From the NCBI GenBank assembly GCA_025454395.1, contig JALOOM010000088.1:1-40218 (forward strand): a stretch of 40,218 nt of DNA, given 5' to 3'. The stretch is from Elainella sp. Prado103. Lineage in GTDB: Bacteria; Cyanobacteriota; Cyanobacteriia; Elainellales; Elainellaceae. This document shows, piece by piece, positions 1,036-25,610 of the stretch. Position 1 is the first letter of the stretch. Each line of letters opens with the position of its first letter. The position numbers and the translations under genes were made by a program. The notes beneath the pieces are model-generated. The model had not been told where the DNA came from, did no database searches, and saw only the letters and a program-made list of their open reading frames with translations.

Positions 1036-1202
1036 CAGTTGAGGATTCGATCGGTTGAGGATTCGATCGGTGAATCTCCTAACAGGCTGATTGAACAGCT
1101 AATTGGTTCGCTAATTTAATTGGTTCGCTAGTTTGATCTACGCATCGATTGCTCATCATCGATTGCTTGTTATTGATTGCCCATTATCGATTGCTCATCA
1201 TC
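1036..1202. repeat. short tandem arrays between two convergent genes, the last running through the cobT-like stop codon
   Basis: Three arrays lie side by side. A 16-bp unit (gttgaggattcgat core) occurs twice at 1036-1067. A 17-bp unit (aattggttcgcta core) occurs twice around 1100-1134. A 14-bp unit (gattgctcatcatc) occurs four times at 1147-1202. The last copy contains the leftward stop codon at 1198-1200, so the array reads as serial copies of the 3' end of that gene. Confidence 0.85.
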
Positions 1203-2325
1203 TCGATATATTTTCTCCAGTGTAAATGGTTGCATATTCGTCAGTAACCTGTTCGATCGCTTCTAAGAGTTGAGTTTGCCCCCAACCTTGGTAGAGCGTT
1301 GCTGCAATCGCACTGCCACCCGCCCCAACCCCTTCTTTGACAAATCCTTGCTCATAGGCACGCAAAGCAGCATAGCGGGACTGGGTAAAGTTGAGCTGCG
1401 TCGCTAACAGCGGGGTATTCAGCATTTTAGCTAGCCCCACCGTGTCCCCAGTCGGATCTTCTGCCACCCAGCGGGTCGTACCAACCACGACGCGATCGGG
1501 TTGCCAATTTAGTCTTTCTGCTTGGGCAATCGCCTCAGCCAAAGCATACACTGTCAGCATTTGTGTGCCACCTGCGAGCAACACCGGGGTGGTTGAGCTG
1601 GCTGCGATCGTCATGCCTGCCACCACAATCTGCATCGGATCACCCACCGCCGCCACAATTTCCCAGGGGTGGAGCAGATTTGAGCGATGATTGTTTTGGC
1701 TGGTCAGTTGGGCTAACCCCGCCTGAACCACTTGCCATTTCTGCTCGTGATTGCAAGCCGGATGACTACTGTTCACCATGCCGCTAGCCGCCCAGCCGAG
1801 TGCCGTTAACACAGCAAGTGCTGTTGTGGTGCCCCCTACTACACATTCCGACAGGATCAGATAGCCGCAGGTTTGAGTAGCGAGTCGTTCTCCCCAAAGC
1901 AAGCCTTGCTGAAATAAATGACGCACTTGCCCGATCGGTAGAGATGCCCCAGTACTGACACAGCGAGCAGGCATTCCTTGCAGGTCGATCATGGGCACGG
2001 ATGCAGGATGGGGAAGTCCGGTGTTGAAAAGCTGTACCGGAATCTGTTGTGCCTGTACGATCGCTCGCGTAATCAAAACGGGCGAGGCACCGGCTTGGAG
2101 CGGGGGGAGGCGATAGGTAGGATGGGCTTGGGTTCCGCGCACCAAAAATTCTGCATCAGCCAGGGCCGTAAATTCTCGATCGGTCGGAGTTGCACCGGCT
2201 GCGGAAATGCCCGGAAGCAATCCCGTTTCTGTGAAGCCCAACACACAGACAAAACCCGGCAGCCGACCCCGACATTGAGCCAACCAAGCATGAGCCCGAT
2301 CGATTTGAGTATAAATCCGAATCAT
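1198..2325 (-). CDS. cobT: CobT-like nicotinate mononucleotide-dependent phosphoribosyltransferase
   Basis: 375 residues, matching the cyanobacterial/archaeal branch of the CobT family (TIGR00303 type). These proteins are thought to activate the lower-ligand base of cobalamin by transferring phosphoribosyl from nicotinate mononucleotide. Family features are a Gly-rich centre (ILSECVVGGTTTALAVLTAL, about 157-176), a second Gly-rich segment (VGDPMQIVVAGMTIAA, about 227-242) and a C-terminal EGVGAGGSAIAA. It follows the DUF2232 gene by 41 nt and probably shares its transcript. cobA lies in the same strand group, which fits a tetrapyrrole/cobalamin role. Cyanobacteria often make pseudocobalamin, so the true base substrate is uncertain. 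The stop codon lies inside a 14-bp tandem array. Confidence 0.85.
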   Translation of the reverse strand: MIRIYTQIDRAHAWLAQCRGRLPGFVCVLGFTETGLLPGISAAGATPTDREFTALADAEFLVRGTQAHPTYRLPPLQAGASPVLITRAIVQAQQIPVQLFNTGLPHPASVPMIDLQGMPARCVSTGASLPIGQVRHLFQQGLLWGERLATQTCGYLILSECVVGGTTTALAVLTALGWAASGMVNSSHPACNHEQKWQVVQAGLAQLTSQNNHRSNLLHPWEIVAAVGDPMQIVVAGMTIAASSTTPVLLAGGTQMLTVYALAEAIAQAERLNWQPDRVVVGTTRWVAEDPTGDTVGLAKMLNTPLLATQLNFTQSRYAALRAYEQGFVKEGVGAGGSAIAATLYQGWGQTQLLEAIEQVTDEYATIYTGENISR

Positions 2326-2366: not shown

Positions 2367-3164
2367 CTATTTTTCCTCTTCCATGATCACCTGCACCCAC
2401 CGGGGTGGATCGGGAATTGGATTACCCAAGCGTTCCAGGAGCAACCAACCCGCCAAATGCACCGTGAACAGGTAGATGAAATCACTCAGCAGCACCACCC
2501 CAACGGTCACAATCTGCACTGTAGTGAGGTCAGTCTGTCCGAGTACTTCCAGTCCAACTAAGCCCCAATTCACCAGTTTTGTCAGGAACCACTGAATCAG
2601 ATCGGTAATTCGATTCGTCAGATAATTCCACAGATCTTCACCCAGAAAGATGGACAACAACCCCAGTCGCATGAAAAAGCCAAAGGTCGAAATTAAGGTG
2701 CCAATGCCGATCGAAGGCAGCCAAGGTGATCGGCGAGTCCACATTGCTCCCAACTGCACGCCCAAGAGCCCATAGGGAATGCAAAACAGCAAACTTAAGT
2801 AGGGGCCCATCAGTACCGACAGCAGCAATCCACAAACTACCGCTGACATCCAAGCCGCCCGATGCCCCCAGCGCAAATACACTAAGGCGATCGGGAGCGG
2901 AAACAAAATCCGCATCCAGGGGCCAATACTGAGATAGTAGCTGACTAACCACAACAAACTGGCCGTGCTAGCTAAAAACGCCGTCTCCACCATCTTCAGC
3001 GGCGGGGTCACCGTTCGCACCGGAGTGTCCACACCAGCCGATCCACCTGACGCAGCCGCCTGATCACTCAACTCAGACTCCACTGCCTCCAACTCTTGCA
3101 CCAACCGATCGCGCTCAGCAGGAGAAAGCGAAGAAGCAGAATTGGGATCGGGTGAATTGCTCAT
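2367..3164 (-). CDS. DUF2232 (YybS-like) multi-span membrane protein
   Basis: 265 residues. A polar N-terminal arm (about 1-55, Ser/Ala/Glu-rich) is followed by six or so hydrophobic helices, among them FLASTASLLWLVSYYL, WMRILFPLPIALVYL, AAWMSAVVCGLLLSVLMG, LPSIGIGTLISTFGFFM and VGVVLLSDFIYLFTVHLAG. The order resembles DUF2232 proteins, whose members look like transporter S-components but have no proven substrate here. It sits directly upstream of the cobT-like gene (41 nt), as I recall from other cyanobacteria. A role in uptake or membrane coupling of a cobalamin-pathway metabolite is inference only. Confidence 0.75.
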   Translation of the reverse strand: MSNSPDPNSASSLSPAERDRLVQELEAVESELSDQAAASGGSAGVDTPVRTVTPPLKMVETAFLASTASLLWLVSYYLSIGPWMRILFPLPIALVYLRWGHRAAWMSAVVCGLLLSVLMGPYLSLLFCIPYGLLGVQLGAMWTRRSPWLPSIGIGTLISTFGFFMRLGLLSIFLGEDLWNYLTNRITDLIQWFLTKLVNWGLVGLEVLGQTDLTTVQIVTVGVVLLSDFIYLFTVHLAGWLLLERLGNPIPDPPRWVQVIMEEEK

Positions 3165-3406
3165 ACTGACCGGAAGGGAACGTAGAAGGCGGCAGACGGT
3201 AGAAGCCTGGGTAGAAGCCTAGAACAATGAAAGTAGAGTTCGGGAGCAAGGCGGTAAGATATCCAATCACCCATCCACTACCGATCTACTAATGTATAGC
3301 AATCCGCTGACAGGTGCAGAAATCCCTTGGGGTTGCCAGCCAGTCAGGCTCAAAGCCCACTCACCCAATCTCACTCACCCAATCTCACTCATCCTAAAGA
3401 TGACGT
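3165..3406. repeat. spacer with a 14-bp direct repeat
   Basis: The 14-bp word cactcacccaatct occurs exactly twice at 3358-3385, followed by a decayed third copy. It lies about 15 bp past the stop of hemD-coaE (leftward, stop at 3407). The rest of the spacer shows nothing else. Confidence 0.8.
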
Positions 3407-4813
3407 TCATTCGTCCCTCCGCTCCTGCCCCAACGCCCGATCCACCTGAGCGAACAGAATTTCTGGGGTTGACGAGTTATCTAACACCACGGTAGCTTGG
3501 GCAATTTTCTTCTCGATCGGCATCTGGCTGCTGATCCGGGCGCGAATTTGGGCAAGATTGAGACGATCGCGCTGCTGGAGTCGTTCAACTTGCTGGGTTT
3601 CTGGAGAGCGCACCACCCAAATTTCCGTGACGAGATCAGTCATGCGGGCTTCAAACAAAAGAGGAATAACTAGCACAGCGGTCGGGTGGCCGGTGAGGGC
3701 AAGTTGCTTGAGATCGCGTTCCATGCAATCCCGCACATAGGGATGAATCTGTTGCTCCAGCCATTGCCGTTCTGGATCGCTGTTGAAGATCAGGTCTCCC
3801 AGTCGAGCGCGATCGAGTTCGCCAGTCGGTAGCAATATCGTTGCGCCATAGCGCCGCACCACTTCGGCTAGAACCTGTGAGCCTGGTTGCACCGCTTGTC
3901 GAGCATAGAGGTCAGCATCCAGTATCGGCAGGTGATGCACGGTGTGCAGATAGTTAGACACCATGGTTTTGCCCATGCCCACGCCTCCCGTGATGCCAAT
4001 AATTCGAGATAAAAACTGCTGGGGTGGAAGTGATCGACTGGGGTGGTGCTGGGCCCAGTTGACGATCGCTGCTGTTAATCCTTCTAAAGTGTATTCGGTC
4101 GCTTCAATATCGACTCGCCCAAACTGTTGCTGACAACTGACTGAAGTTTGGGGCCCGATCGAGGCAATCAGGGGCAGCTCGATCGCCAAGGGCTGCACCA
4201 GTTGAGCAAAGCAGTGGACGGTTTTGGAACTGGCAAAGGTTAGAATATCGATGATGCCGCGCTGGAGAGCAGTTTGGATGGTGGGCGGCAGGCTAGAGAC
4301 ACAGCCAGATTCATAGGCGGGTACTTCGGTGATGAGTGCCCCGGCTGCCGTTAGAGCTTTCACCAACACATCTCGCCCGCCTGATTCGACACGGGGAAAC
4401 AAAATCTTCAGCCCAGCCACAGGTTCCGGAAAATGTTCGACCAGGGCATCAGCCACAAATTGGGGCGGTATGAAATCGGGCGATCGGCCCTGTCTCTCTA
4501 AACTGGCGGCGGTTTTCTGCCCCACTACCGCAATTTTGAGATCGGTGAGGTCAGTCAGCGTTTTGGATTGGGCGGCACAACGCTCCAGGAAGTAGTCCAC
4601 TCCATTGGTGGAAGTTAAAATGAGCCAATCAAACTGCGACAGATGGGCAATTGCCTGATCCAATGGGATCCAACTGGAAGGCGGGGTGATTTCGATCGCC
4701 GGTACCTCCAGCACAATCGCACCCTGCTGCTGCAATAGTTGCGTAAACTGGCTGGATTGCCCAGCCGAACGAGTCACCAAAACCGTTCGATTCGTTAGCG
4801 GTGCAGCCGTCAC
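3407..4813 (-). CDS. hemD-coaE: fusion of uroporphyrinogen-III synthase (HemD) and dephospho-CoA kinase (CoaE)
   Basis: 468 residues in one uninterrupted frame with two complete enzymes. Residues 1-260 are HemD, which closes hydroxymethylbilane to uroporphyrinogen III. Visible features are NRTVLVTRSAGQSSQFTQLL, the FDWLILTSTNGVDYF segment, KILFPRVESGGRDVL and DILTFASSKTVHCF. Residues 268-468 are CoaE, the last step of coenzyme A synthesis. Visible features are the P-loop GITGGVGMGKT (273-283), ILDADLYAR, QIHPYVRD, VIPLLFEA and VVLDNSS. The linker (about 255-268) is short and no start codon sits at a usual CoaE start. Both domains have near-normal length, so nothing looks decayed. cobA lies 120 nt upstream on the same strand and uses the HemD product. 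A lost stop codon through sequencing error cannot be excluded. Confidence 0.9.
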   Translation of the reverse strand: MTAAPLTNRTVLVTRSAGQSSQFTQLLQQQGAIVLEVPAIEITPPSSWIPLDQAIAHLSQFDWLILTSTNGVDYFLERCAAQSKTLTDLTDLKIAVVGQKTAASLERQGRSPDFIPPQFVADALVEHFPEPVAGLKILFPRVESGGRDVLVKALTAAGALITEVPAYESGCVSSLPPTIQTALQRGIIDILTFASSKTVHCFAQLVQPLAIELPLIASIGPQTSVSCQQQFGRVDIEATEYTLEGLTAAIVNWAQHHPSRSLPPQQFLSRIIGITGGVGMGKTMVSNYLHTVHHLPILDADLYARQAVQPGSQVLAEVVRRYGATILLPTGELDRARLGDLIFNSDPERQWLEQQIHPYVRDCMERDLKQLALTGHPTAVLVIPLLFEARMTDLVTEIWVVRSPETQQVERLQQRDRLNLAQIRARISSQMPIEKKIAQATVVLDNSSTPEILFAQVDRALGQERRDE

Positions 4814-4933
4814 AGTTCCTCCTCAGTCGATCTGCTGATCTGGTCAGATTTTTTCAGATTTTATTGTGGATCGTTTCGATTGCGATCAAATGGCGGTTGG
4901 AGGGCGCTCATTCACTCTGATACCCTGTCATCC

Positions 4934-5722
4934 CTATTCCGGTGAATCGATCGCTCCATCAGCCTGCCTCAGGTAAGGGCGTAATCCCACCACCTCACCA
5001 ATCACAATCACAGCCGGTGAAAGGGTTTCCTGACGGGTTTGCCGCACCACTGCCCCCAGACTGCTGACCCAGATTTGCTGTTGGGGTTGGCCTGCCCAAC
5101 GAATAATGGCGATCGGCGTTTCCAAGGATCGACCGTGGCGGATTAGTTGTTCCACCACTTCAGCGAGTTGTCGGGTTCCCATTAAAATCACCAGGGTTTC
5201 TAACTGGGCGAGCGCTTCCCATTCCAGAGCATCGGGCTCATGGGCACTCATGACAGCAAAACAGCGGCTCTGAACCGGATCGGTGAGAGGAATACCCGCC
5301 AGCAAAGGGGCAGTGAGTGCAGAAGATAGACCAGGAACGACTTCAAAGGCACAACCTGCCTCAATGAGCGCCTGAATCTCGGCAGTTGATCGCCCAAAAA
5401 TAAACGGATCGCCACTCTTCAGTCGCACCACCCGCTTACCTTGCTGCCCATACTGCACAAGCAACTGGTTAATTTCAGCTTGGGGAGTGCTGGGGAAGCC
5501 ACCCCGTTTTCCCACTTCCAGCTTGAGACAATGGGTTGGTACCAGATCCAGCAGGGCATCTCCCACAAGTGCATCATAAATTAACACTTCTGCCTGTTTC
5601 AGCAGCTCATAGGCTTGCAGGGTCAGATGGGCTACGCTGCCTAATCCTGCTCCCACTAAATATACTTTTCCCAATGGTTGTTGCCGATCGTTTCCCAAAA
5701 CTCTGCGACTCCCCCAATCCAA
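4934..5722 (-). CDS. cobA: uroporphyrinogen-III C-methyltransferase (SUMT)
   Basis: 262 residues. It methylates uroporphyrinogen III at C2 and C7 with S-adenosylmethionine to give precorrin-2, the branch to siroheme and cobalamin. The SUMT signature is clear: GKVYLVGAGLGS near residue 18, YDALVG, RLKSGDPFIFGR (about 101-112), EVVPGLSSALTAP, and VILMGTRQLAEVV. The first glycine loop reads GAGLGSVAHLT instead of the usual GPGDPxLLT. The conserved part begins at residue 17 or so, and the upstream 16 residues may be over-extension. It heads the leftward cobA, hemD-coaE, DUF2232, cobT-like group. Confidence 0.92.
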   Translation of the reverse strand: MDWGSRRVLGNDRQQPLGKVYLVGAGLGSVAHLTLQAYELLKQAEVLIYDALVGDALLDLVPTHCLKLEVGKRGGFPSTPQAEINQLLVQYGQQGKRVVRLKSGDPFIFGRSTAEIQALIEAGCAFEVVPGLSSALTAPLLAGIPLTDPVQSRCFAVMSAHEPDALEWEALAQLETLVILMGTRQLAEVVEQLIRHGRSLETPIAIIRWAGQPQQQIWVSSLGAVVRQTRQETLSPAVIVIGEVVGLRPYLRQADGAIDSPE

Positions 5723-5809
5723 TTCCGATCAAACTGACGTATTCAAACGGATACCCATTCTTTGTGAAGCTGAGTAGAACCAGGGGCTTAAACTCCTGGT
5801 CTAGCCAGC

Positions 5810-5983
5810 CTGATTGACTGACAAAACTCAAACTGCCCACTGCTACGCAGAAGCAAGCTACACCCCAACCCCTTTCCCAGAGCGGGCGAGGGGCTTTCGA
5901 ACCAGGATTTGATTGGAAGTCCCTTCGCCCCTAGTGGGAGAAGGGATTTAGGGATGCGAGGAAAAGATTGATCAGTCAATCAG
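5810..5983. mobile_element. 174-bp MITE-like element, complete copy
   Basis: The ends are perfect 12-bp inverted repeats: ctgattgactga at 5810-5821 and tcagtcaatcag at 5972-5983. The flanks are near-identical 9-mers, ctagccagc (5801-5809) and ctagcaagc (5984-5992), 8 of 9 equal, which fits a 9-bp target duplication. The interior has a strong hairpin (5921-5945) and no coding frame. The right half matches copy 1 at 1-96. The probable empty site is 37681-37741. The element would need a transposase from elsewhere. The IS family is unknown; 9-bp duplications occur in several. Confidence 0.75.
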
Positions 5984-6029
5984 CTAGCAAGCATTGATTC
6001 TACGCAAACTCATATCAAATTGGTATGAG
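5984..6029. repeat. dispersed repeat B, copy 1
   Basis: 46 bp matching 37696-37741 with four differences; the core is ttctacgcaa(a/g)ctcata. The upstream extension 5786-5805 also resembles 37681-37700 (15 of 20), with the MITE between the two parts. No coding capacity. It may be a relic of an older mobile element. Confidence 0.75.
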
Positions 6030-6238
6030 GTATATGGTAGCAAGAACCTCGACAATTACCCGATGACCTGGAAAGACCGTGATGTGGATTGACAAGATCA
6101 CTAAAAATGGCGCTCAATTCCCATTCTTCAAAGAATAGGGATACTTTGTCTTCTTGCATATCTACTATCTATTTAGTTATTTAAGCTGTGAACAACTGCT
6201 TAATATAAGGTGTAAATAGCTGCTTGATATACTGAGGT

Positions 6239-6703
6239 GTGAATTATAATTATGAGAATATTGTAGAGCTTAAGAAGGTTGCATTTCGTATTCTTCGAAC
6301 TGTAAGTCAAGCTTCTTCGTCACTGTATACATCGCTATCTACTATGAGTCAATGTTCCTGTGGATCGGCAGGGTGTAGCTGCCCGAAAGTTAGTATTAAC
6401 GATTTACCTAAAGGTGAACAGGTCGTCACAACGATCAAGCGCGAAGATATTCCAAAACCAATCAAATGTCCGCCGCCACCACCAGTTGTGTTGATCGTTA
6501 CTATAACGGTTGCCCTAACTTGGACTATTAAATCAATCGTTGATCTCAAAATAGAGCTTCCTCCGATTGATCCTGCTCCTGACTATCCTGACCCTGCTTA
6601 TAAGAAGCCTTCCTGCCCCAAACCCCCTAAAGATCTGCCTCATTCGCCTGGCTATGCTGACCCTTATAATTCCTGCGATCTCACGCTAGAGTATCGCCCT
6701 TGA
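6239..6703 (+). CDS. unknown small protein, Cys-cluster then Pro-rich, one hydrophobic segment
   Basis: 154 residues from GTG at 6239, or 119 from ATG at 6344, which begins MSQCSCGSAGCSCP. I do not recognise a family. After the Cys cluster comes a proline run (KCPPPPP), a hydrophobic stretch (VVLIVTITVALTWTI, about 83-97) that could span a membrane, and a Pro/Tyr/Asp-rich tail with two further Cys. The GTG has gagg only one base upstream, which is poor spacing, and the ATG has no clear ribosome site. The DNA is more AT-rich than its neighbours and lies next to a mobile element, which hints at transfer. It precedes the FAD monooxygenase by 234 nt on the same strand. It may be a secreted or surface peptide, a metal-binding protein or a modified peptide precursor; none is shown. 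Confidence 0.45.
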   Translation: MNYNYENIVELKKVAFRILRTVSQASSSLYTSLSTMSQCSCGSAGCSCPKVSINDLPKGEQVVTTIKREDIPKPIKCPPPPPVVLIVTITVALTWTIKSIVDLKIELPPIDPAPDYPDPAYKKPSCPKPPKDLPHSPGYADPYNSCDLTLEYRP

Positions 6704-22187: not shown

Positions 22188-25100
22188 GTGGAGCATATGT
22201 ACCGATCGACTTTAAGCGACGACCCCCTCTGGTTTAAAGATGCCATTATTTATGAAGTGCCGGTCAAAGCCTTTGCCGATAGCGATAGCGATGGCATTGG
22301 TGATTTCCGTGGCTTGACCGATCGACTAGACTACATTCAAGATCTGGGGGTCACTGCAATTTGGCTCTTGCCGTTTTTCCCTTCACCGCTGCGGGATGAT
22401 GGCTATGATATTGCCGACTACAACACGGTGAATCCAATCTACGGCAACACCGAAGACTTTAAGGAATTTTTGGATGCAGCCCACCAGCGTAATATTCGGG
22501 TGATCGTAGAACTGATCGTCAACCACACTTCCGATCAGCATCCCTGGTTTCAGCGGGCCCGCAAAGCACCGCCGGGCAGCAGTGAACGCAATTTTTATGT
22601 CTGGAGTGACTCGCCAGAAAAATACCGGGGCGTGCGGATTATTTTCAAAGATTTTGAAACCTCTAACTGGACTTGGGATCCGGTGGCTAAAGCCTACTTC
22701 TGGCACCGGTTTTATTCCCATCAGCCCGATCTCAACTATGAGAATCCAGAACTGCAAAAAGCCATCTTTGATGTGGTGGATCACTGGCTGGGCATGGGGG
22801 TGGATGGATTACGCATGGATGCCGTGCCCTACCTGTATGAAGAGGAAGGCACTATCTGCGAAAACCTGCCCCGCACTCACGCCTTCTTGAAAGCGCTCCG
22901 CGCTCATGTGGATGCCAAGTTTCCCAACCGGATGCTGCTGGCAGAAGCGAACCAGTGGCCCGAAGATGCGGCTGCCTACTACGGGGAAGGTGATGAATGC
23001 CACATGAATTTCCACTTTCCGCTCATGCCCCGCCTATTTATGGCCTTGCGGATGGAGGATAGCTTCCCGATCATCGATATTTTGCAGCAGACTCCCCACA
23101 TTCCCACCAATTGCCAATGGGCCTTGTTCTTGCGCAACCACGATGAGCTGACGCTGGAAATGGTCAGTGATGAGGATCGGGATTACATGTATCGGGTCTA
23201 TGCCGAAGATCCGCAAGCCCGCATCAACCTGGGGATTCGTCGCCGGTTGGCTCCCCTGCTCAGCAATAATCGCCGCCGCATTGAGCTGATGAATAGCTTA
23301 CTGCTGTCGTTGCCAGGCACCCCCGTGCTCTACTATGGCGACGAGATTGGCATGGGCGACAATATCTATCTGGGCGATCGCAACGGGGTGAGAACGCCGA
23401 TGCAGTGGAGTGGAGATCGTAACGCCGGATTTAGCCGCGCTAACCCTCAAAAGCTATTTTTGCCCACGATCGTCGATCCGGAATATCACTACGAAACTGT
23501 GAATGTGGAGGCCCAACGCGCCAACCCCAACTCCCTCTGGTGGTGGATGAAGCGCTTGATCGCAATCCGCAGTCGTTATCAAGCCTTTGGGCGCGGCACA
23601 TTCGAGTTTCTCTATCCAGAAAATCGCAAAGTTCTCGCCTTTACTCGCACCTACCAAGGCGAGCATATTATGGTGGTGGCTAACCTGTCGCGGTTTGTCC
23701 AAGCGGTGGAGTTGGATCTGTCGCCCTTCCAGGGCATGGTGCCAGTCGAGATTTTCGGTCGTAGTGAGTTTCCCCGCATCAGCGATCAACCTTACTTCCT
23801 CAGCCTTGGACCTCACGCCTTCTTCTGGTTTACGCTGCAATTCCAGCCAGCCAATGCCCAGTTGCCCCAAGCTCCAGCTACCTTGCCCACCTTGAAAGTC
23901 AATGGCAGTTGGCGGGATATTTACACTCGCGCAGAAGCTCGCAAAGGCTTTGAAGCTCTGCTACCTGCCTATTTACAAAGCTGCGCCTGGTTTGAGAAGG
24001 GAGCCACTTTGCAAAATGTGCAGTTAGTGGATGCCATTCCCCTGGAATTGCCAAAAGCAGGTCATGTGCATCCAGGGATTCGCCATGCGGTTGGCTATGA
24101 CATTGTCTTGGTGCGAGCCGAATATACCGAAGGCATTCCGGAAACCTTTGTGTTACCCCTGGCCTACCTGCCTGACAAAACGGAAGATGCAGCAGCGATC
24201 GTTCAACTGCTGGGTTCACAGGAATCAGGCTTACTGGTCGATGCTTTGTCGCAGCGAGAGTTCCTAGAAATTCCCCTGCAAGCGATCGTGCATCGATCTC
24301 GTTATCCAGGGAGCGGGGGTGAAATTGTCACGGCAATCACCGAGCCGTTTCCTGAAAATTGGCAGACCGGACAAGCCCAGTCTGAACCGATCGAACCACA
24401 TCTTGTGCGAGGTGCCCATACTAATGCTCTGATTAGCTATGGTGCCTCAGCGGAAGGCGGTTCTACCCATAACCGCTATATGTTTAAGCTCTATCGCCAA
24501 GTCGATGAATGCATTAATTCCGATTGGGAAGTCACGCGGTTTCTCACCCAAAAGCTCGGTCGCCCCGATAGCTGCTCCGAAAGCCTATTCAGCCCCGCCT
24601 ACGGTGCCTTAGAGTATCGCCGTAAAAATGCTGCTCCCATGACGATCGGCATGTTACAACATTGTGTCCCCGAAGTACGGGATGCTTGGTCTTATGCGCT
24701 AGATAGCCTGCGGGATTGCTTTGAGCGGGTGATGGTAGAACAGCGAGAAATCAACGAAATCATCATGCCATCGAATGTGCTGTCCAAGGCATTGGCAACC
24801 GAAATTCCCGATATGGCCCTGGCGTTGATGAATCCCCAACTTCGGGCAGCCGAACTGTTGGGACAACGCACTGCGGAGCTGCATCTCGTCCTTGCAGCCG
24901 ATGCAGATGACCCGGATTTTGCGCCGGAAGCTTTCACCAGTTTCTATCAGCGATCGATCTACCAATACATGCGCAATCAAGCCGGTCGAGTGTTGCTCCA
25001 ATTGCGTAAACAATCCAAACATCTACCGAGCGAAATGCAGCCTGCCGCTCGTACCATTTTGGGCCATTGGGAAGAACTGTTGGGTCGATTCAAAATTCTA

Positions 25101-25610
25101 TTGAATCAGCAGATTCATACGATGCGGATTCGCTGCCACGGCAATTATCACCTCGAAGAAGTCCTCTACACTGGCAAAGACTTTGTGATGATTGACTTTG
25201 AAGGCGAGCCCAATCGGCCGCTCAGCGAACGTCGTATGAAGCGATCGCCCCTACGGGATATTGCAGGCATGGTGCAGTCGTTCTACTACGCTTCCCAAGT
25301 GGCGCTGCGGAACGAGATCCAAACCGGCATGATCCGCCCGGAAACTCGTCCTCTTATGCAACAGTGGGCTCAGTTTTTCCATGCTTGGGCTAGTGTCACC
25401 TTTTTGAAGCAATATGTGCAGACGGTGGGAGAGGCCCCCTTTATCCCCCAATCCCATCAAGAGTTGCAAGTATTGCTGGATGCCTACCTGTTGGAAAAAG
25501 CAGTCTACGAACTGGGCTATGAAATGAACCATCGCCCCGATCGCATCGATATTCCGCTCTATCGGTTGATCGAACTGCTGGAACCCCCGGCGATCGGAGA
25601 CTGGCGGTAG
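22188..25610 (+). CDS. treS: trehalose synthase (TreS) fused to maltokinase
   Basis: 1140 residues. Residues 1-560 are a GH13 enzyme that interconverts maltose and trehalose. Motifs are YEVPVKAFADSDSDGIGDF, ELIVNHTSDQHPWFQ, GLRMDAVPYL (nucleophile Asp211), LLAEANQWP (acid/base Glu253) and LRNHDELTL (Asp319). Residues about 590-1140 are a maltokinase that makes maltose 1-phosphate with ATP: a kinase-like N-lobe, HGNYHLEEVLY (about 984-994) and VMIDFEGEPNRPLSERRMKR. The fusion is known in other bacteria, where it channels trehalose into alpha-glucan through GlgE; no glgE is in the window. The GTG at 22188 is preferred because aaggga lies 8 nt upstream; ATG 22197 is the alternative. A role in osmotic or desiccation tolerance is likely, but inferred. 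Confidence 0.95.
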   Translation: MEHMYRSTLSDDPLWFKDAIIYEVPVKAFADSDSDGIGDFRGLTDRLDYIQDLGVTAIWLLPFFPSPLRDDGYDIADYNTVNPIYGNTEDFKEFLDAAHQRNIRVIVELIVNHTSDQHPWFQRARKAPPGSSERNFYVWSDSPEKYRGVRIIFKDFETSNWTWDPVAKAYFWHRFYSHQPDLNYENPELQKAIFDVVDHWLGMGVDGLRMDAVPYLYEEEGTICENLPRTHAFLKALRAHVDAKFPNRMLLAEANQWPEDAAAYYGEGDECHMNFHFPLMPRLFMALRMEDSFPIIDILQQTPHIPTNCQWALFLRNHDELTLEMVSDEDRDYMYRVYAEDPQARINLGIRRRLAPLLSNNRRRIELMNSLLLSLPGTPVLYYGDEIGMGDNIYLGDRNGVRTPMQWSGDRNAGFSRANPQKLFLPTIVDPEYHYETVNVEAQRANPNSLWWWMKRLIAIRSRYQAFGRGTFEFLYPENRKVLAFTRTYQGEHIMVVANLSRFVQAVELDLSPFQGMVPVEIFGRSEFPRISDQPYFLSLGPHAFFWFTLQFQPANAQLPQAPATLPTLKVNGSWRDIYTRAEARKGFEALLPAYLQSCAWFEKGATLQNVQLVDAIPLELPKAGHVHPGIRHAVGYDIVLVRAEYTEGIPETFVLPLAYLPDKTEDAAAIVQLLGSQESGLLVDALSQREFLEIPLQAIVHRSRYPGSGGEIVTAITEPFPENWQTGQAQSEPIEPHLVRGAHTNALISYGASAEGGSTHNRYMFKLYRQVDECINSDWEVTRFLTQKLGRPDSCSESLFSPAYGALEYRRKNAAPMTIGMLQHCVPEVRDAWSYALDSLRDCFERVMVEQREINEIIMPSNVLSKALATEIPDMALALMNPQLRAAELLGQRTAELHLVLAADADDPDFAPEAFTSFYQRSIYQYMRNQAGRVLLQLRKQSKHLPSEMQPAARTILGHWEELLGRFKILLNQQIHTMRIRCHGNYHLEEVLYTGKDFVMIDFEGEPNRPLSERRMKRSPLRDIAGMVQSFYYASQVALRNEIQTGMIRPETRPLMQQWAQFFHAWASVTFLKQYVQTVGEAPFIPQSHQELQVLLDAYLLEKAVYELGYEMNHRPDRIDIPLYRLIELLEPPAIGDWR

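Follow-up and report, generated by a model that had tools for sequence, protein, structure and literature searches.

A probable lineage-private fusion of the operon neighbours hemD and coaE in Elainella sp. Prado103

In the cyanobacterium Elainella sp. Prado103, the genes for uroporphyrinogen-III synthase (HemD) and dephospho-CoA kinase (CoaE) are joined in a single uninterrupted open reading frame of 468 codons, on the minus strand at 3407-4813 of the window (the whole stretch of 40,218 nucleotides that was analysed). With a probability of roughly 0.8, this frame is a real fusion of operon neighbours, private to its lineage and encoding one protein of ~51.5 kDa in which two independent enzymes are tethered. 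The initial annotation had described two full enzymes sharing one frame through a short linker, which agrees with the length of the frame, its two nearly full-length Pfam domains and a flexible linker of ~13 residues. The features of the region are:

4934..5722, minus strand: cobA, uroporphyrinogen-III C-methyltransferase (TIGR01469, 268.4 bits, cut-off 185)
4818..4823, minus strand: AGGAGG, a ribosome-binding-like site in front of the GTG start at 4813-4811, read from the sequence
3407..4813, minus strand: joint hemD-coaE frame of 468 aa, running from a GTG start to the stop at 3407-3409
4073..4750, minus strand: HemD (HEM4) domain, residues 22-247 (Pfam; fold match to uroporphyrinogen-III synthase structures)
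4007..4045, minus strand: linker, residues 257-269, free of stops and of in-frame ATG, GTG or TTG codons, model confidence below 50 at residues 260-264
3467..4003, minus strand: CoaE (dephospho-CoA kinase) domain, residues 271-449, P-loop GGVGMGKTM (Pfam, TIGR00152, PDB and fold matches)
2367..3164, minus strand: DUF2232 protein (Pfam), downstream of hemD-coaE, order the same in G001 and G003
1198..2325, minus strand: TIGR00303 CobT-type phosphoribosyltransferase, downstream, order the same in G001 and G003

Both halves of the predicted protein (51.5 kDa, pI 5.6) are recognized far above the Pfam cut-offs of 27.5 bits for HEM4 and 27 bits for CoaE. The HEM4 domain scores 189.6 bits (E 6.1e-56) and covers profile positions 2-230 of 231, and CoaE scores 194 bits (E 2.4e-57) over almost the whole profile; the dephospho-CoA kinase equivalog TIGR00152 also matches, at 187.5 bits against a cut-off of 65.55. 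Chance cannot account for two full domains that exceed their cut-offs within one frame. None of the NCBIfam HemD equivalog models reaches its cut-off in the fused protein (the best, NF004593, gives 115.6 bits against 275); these models presumably describe narrow subgroups, so that such scores lower membership of those subgroups alone. The fused gene is the sole CoaE and the sole HEM4 match over cut-off in the genome (5.84 Mb in 157 contigs, 99.29% complete), where three other CoaE matches and one other HEM4 match all fall below 16 bits.

The AlphaFold2 model of the fused protein (alignment A2) has a mean pLDDT of 90.4 and a pTM of 0.56, with residues 260-264 below 50, and predicts two well-formed domains without a fixed mutual arrangement. 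Dephospho-CoA kinase and uroporphyrinogen-III synthase structures are among the best Foldseek matches of this model in the PDB, and a sequence search of the PDB with the fused protein returned 15 sequences, CoaE-type chains only. Conservation was assessed at columns at least 95% identical in relatives, using 83 HemD and 63 CoaE rows from which short or interrupted sequences had been dropped. The window keeps 81 of the 82 conserved HemD columns, the exception being L79C (Leu in 78 of 82 relatives), and 45 of the 46 columns conserved in the other 62 CoaE rows, the exception being T284M. The latter, the more notable of the two, lies at codon 284 (3962-3964) and turns the GKTT of the P-loop into GKTM at a position that is Thr in 62 of 62 relatives. 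Sequence and model together give both domains the appearance of functional enzymes held by a flexible linker; because T284 is replaced by Met in the P-loop and L79 by Cys in HemD, full CoaE activity is not assured.

Ratios of non-synonymous to synonymous differences (pN/pS) between the window and its sister genome Elainella saxicola E1 (G001) are 0.27 for HemD and 0.25 for CoaE, those between the window and G003 are 0.35 and 0.23, and three unfused pairs range from 0.17 to 0.27; with dS high or saturated, these values give neither the age of the fusion nor the share of selection that followed it. In a joint tree of 32 genomes, where the window genome is sister to G001 with support 100/99, the CoaE tip branch is 0.18 in both the window and its unfused sister, while that of HemD is 0.37 in the window vs 0.20 in G001. 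HemD evolves somewhat faster in the window, by this branch and by its pN/pS of 0.35 against G003.

At the junction, the conserved LEGLT of HemD is followed by AAIVNWAQHHPSRSLPPQQFLS and then by RIIGITGG of CoaE. All three forward frames are free of stops from LEGLT to the P-loop. No in-frame ATG, GTG or TTG occurs from LEGLT up to codon 278, which already lies within the P-loop; the sole such codon in this stretch is the TTG at 3999, which is out of frame, and the first in-frame standard starts (GTG at codon 278 and ATG at codon 280) are both inside the P-loop. Of the 65 relatives in which coaE follows hemD, 41 were taken into a comparison of leaders, and 39 could be read, the motif not being found in G019 and G050. 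All 39 have an ATG, GTG or TTG no further than 45 codons upstream of the CoaE domain, a stretch in which the window has none. In the window, SLPPQQFLSRIIG is similar to the CoaE leaders MANWLPPNLLQRVIG (G031) and MVNRFPPDPLRRIIG (G023), although only 8 of 40 leaders (window counted in) have PP at that place, and the HemD tail NWAQHH is similar to the QWAQHK-stop of G071. The three-frame reading rules out a single sequencing error as the cause of the fusion: the hemD stop and the coaE start are both missing, so one wrong base cannot explain the junction, and one short deletion can. The congeners G001, G003 and G004 have a longer spacer than the window; since the spacer of G002 is close to the window's in length, a deletion is the most economical route and not the sole one. 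A single in-frame deletion is accordingly proposed as the simplest fusion event, and other combinations of changes may have led to the same junction. The suggestion of an accident through a lost stop codon between neighbours holds as to an accident at their boundary (the two genes occupy separate frames in all 65 others) and falls short in that the coaE start was lost too.

In the other genomes examined, hemD and coaE are separate genes that often lie next to each other, in the order cobA-hemD-coaE. This was assessed in a census of hemD-bearing loci from 89 genomes or records, a non-random sample of best-scoring and hand-picked loci from which those without HemD were excluded; many of the loci cover only about 1.5 kb on either side. 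In 66 of the 89, a coaE gene lies no more than 1.5 kb behind hemD on the same strand; the two occupy separate frames in 65 of these, G001 included, and one frame in the window alone. Upstream, cobA is present in 80 of the 89; cobA and hemD form a CobA-HemD one-frame fusion in 51 of these 80 and are separate in 29. In the window they lie in the same frame with five stop codons in between, and there is no uninterrupted frame shared by the two. The boundaries of genes in this operon are readily lost, usually at the cobA-hemD junction and not at that of hemD and coaE, as follows from the 51 of 80 CobA-HemD fusions on the one hand and the fused hemD-coaE of the window on the other. With cobA upstream and a CobT-type TIGR00303 enzyme downstream, the description of the locus as a cobalamin group is partly right; a DUF2232 protein lies downstream as well.

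Several smaller observations were made at these loci. Fused and unfused states of CobA-HemD are mixed even within the family of the window (fused loci include L087, L016 and L027). At the Elainella saxicola E1 locus (L031, 1-4000), no cobA is found within 4 kb upstream of hemD. In L024 (G030, 2437-3005), CoaE is divided over two frames of 118 and 121 aa by a frameshift in the gene or in the assembly. A scan of 3100-6300 in the window gave four promoter-like sites against 2.5 (sd 1.5) expected from shuffles and one terminator-like site against 3.1 (sd 2.0) expected, neither above chance.

Further HemD-CoaE fusions were sought with the fused protein in 98 relatives, 36 genomes of the order, 388 of the class and 386 of the phylum (the window genome being in each), as well as in 291 genomes of the order of G335; these five sets overlap and carry the handles G000-G830. 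Genomes without any match numbered 1, 1, 4, 9 and 0, respectively. Among the matches listed, the window genome (G000) is the only one with a stop-free match over both domains, and no second uninterrupted full-length HemD-CoaE occurs. Single matches over both domains in G009, G004, G075, G335, G362, G596, G646, G670, G692, G722 and G729 each contain at least one internal stop, and the partial both-domain matches in G031, G061 and G092 contain stops too. A fusion with a long linker could appear among the matches listed as two matches, so that rarer fusions may have escaped notice. Outside the phylum, coverage came from a pattern-based contig scan alone, in which 8 of 48 loci match both domains, all 8 with stops or a change of frame between them.

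Apparent further fusions with equal open-frame lengths for the two genes (e.g. 731 in G023 and 490 in G001) were rejected as read-through counts, the stop-to-stop frames being 515 and 215 aa in G023 and 267 and 222 aa in G001. Retrieval of the larger frames of G133, G171, G159, G298, G218, G325, G333, G207, G265, G371 and G158 showed no HemD-CoaE fusion among them. A conserved HemD-CoaE family therefore has no second member in the material covered (one of 89 in the census, none more among the matches listed for G000-G830). Separate genes in all relatives, which that annotation would have held against a fusion, are indeed what the relatives examined have; the fusion is thereby private to its lineage, and not false. 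Among the papers listed from the open literature searched, a part of the whole, none describes a HemD-CoaE fusion or a hemD-coaE gene pair; in the accessible parts of PMC8073705, both gene names are present in unrelated places.

That the two genes are separate in the relatives examined, and that the fusion is supported by one draft assembly of one strain, are what an artefact of assembly or sequencing would also produce, in which a hemD stop and a coaE start exist and the bases between were dropped; the spacer, shorter than in three congeners though not than in G002, is compatible with such a loss. This reading is nevertheless unlikely, as a single-base error is insufficient where no forward frame has a stop and no usable start exists, a short stretch would have to have dropped out cleanly and in frame, and the linker has a GC content (0.57) close to that of its flanks (0.54 and 0.55). 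It is more improbable still that CoaE is also made separately, either through initiation at an unusual codon (such as ATT at 4003 or 4000) or through cleavage of the fused chain. In some relatives, CoaE may have a leader of just a few residues ahead of the domain (MRIIGLTGG in G002, for example), and the low-confidence linker could be cut; yet the 20 bases before either ATT hold no AGGAGG-like site, ATT start codons are rare, and starts at codons 278 or 280 would destroy the P-loop. Under the preferred reading of a private fusion, a short in-frame deletion in this Elainella species would have removed the hemD stop and the coaE start together, and the cell would make one protein of ~51.5 kDa. 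Its N-terminal domain would close hydroxymethylbilane to uroporphyrinogen III and its C-terminal domain would phosphorylate dephospho-CoA to CoA, the two presumably working independently on the flexible linker, and the cell would probably depend on this protein for both steps.

A real fusion could in turn have been selected as a link between tetrapyrrole and CoA synthesis, through a fixed ratio, shared regulation or co-localisation. One polypeptide does fix the ratio, and joint expression may be old, given coaE behind hemD in 66 of 89 census genomes. Against such a link, which is very improbable, stand the lack of a second genome with the fusion among the matches listed or in the census, a model (pTM 0.56, low-confidence linker) with no sign of a docked pair, and the lack of a common metabolite. 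To our knowledge, HemD and CoaE have no substrate in common, and cyanobacteria derive 5-aminolevulinate from glutamate by the C5 pathway and not from succinyl-CoA, so that CoA does not feed tetrapyrrole synthesis there. The fixed ratio proposed in the initial annotation is trivially true of one polypeptide, and none of the tests indicates selection for it or a use of it. Least probable of all is a bifunctional HemD-CoaE whose tether tunes CoA supply to tetrapyrrole flux by fixed stoichiometry or mutual regulation, selected in this lineage and with T284M as part of a retuned kinase. Since adjacency is widespread, the fusion is seen in one lineage only and no docking is predicted, the joining of these operon neighbours was more probably neutral, or nearly so, than selected as a link.

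Each domain has precedents in other fused proteins. The CobA-HemD (uroporphyrinogen-III methyltransferase/synthase) fusion, which the consulted part of PMC11237513 describes for other groups, likewise joins HemD to an operon neighbour from the same gene cluster. It is recurrent, unites consecutive enzymes of one tetrapyrrole branch and places HemD C-terminally, whereas the window has cobA apart from hemD, and HemD there is N-terminal, with a partner from another pathway. According to the accessible text of PMC2765170, the mycobacterial dephospho-CoA kinase Rv1631 (CoaE-UPF0157) is also a two-domain bacterial CoaE protein; unlike in the window, CoaE is N-terminal there and is followed by a UPF0157/GrpB partner with a folding role, and not by a second biosynthetic enzyme. 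Mammalian CoA synthase (CoaD-CoaE), as described in PMC2765170, is likewise a bifunctional enzyme with CoaE at its C-terminus, and the mouse structure 2f6r matches the window model. Its partner is the preceding enzyme of the CoA pathway, for which channelling is sensible, in contrast to the partner from another pathway in the window. The HemD/HemX fusion (NF005411) shares HemD as an N-terminal domain; its model gives a weak partial match to the fused protein (74.5 bits over residues 8-168, cut-off 414), over HemD only and with no HemX part matched.

The mechanism is modest, as two known enzymes lost one gene boundary. The window offers a natural case of operon neighbours fused without an evident pathway link, and a caution for functional links drawn from fusions by Rosetta-stone logic: adjacency may suffice, and the boundary between cobA and hemD is often lost. 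If the fusion is confirmed, two housekeeping steps of this species also rely on a single protein.

Elsewhere in the window, a frame of 1140 aa at 22188-25610 resembles what we take to be a trehalose synthase joined to a maltokinase domain.
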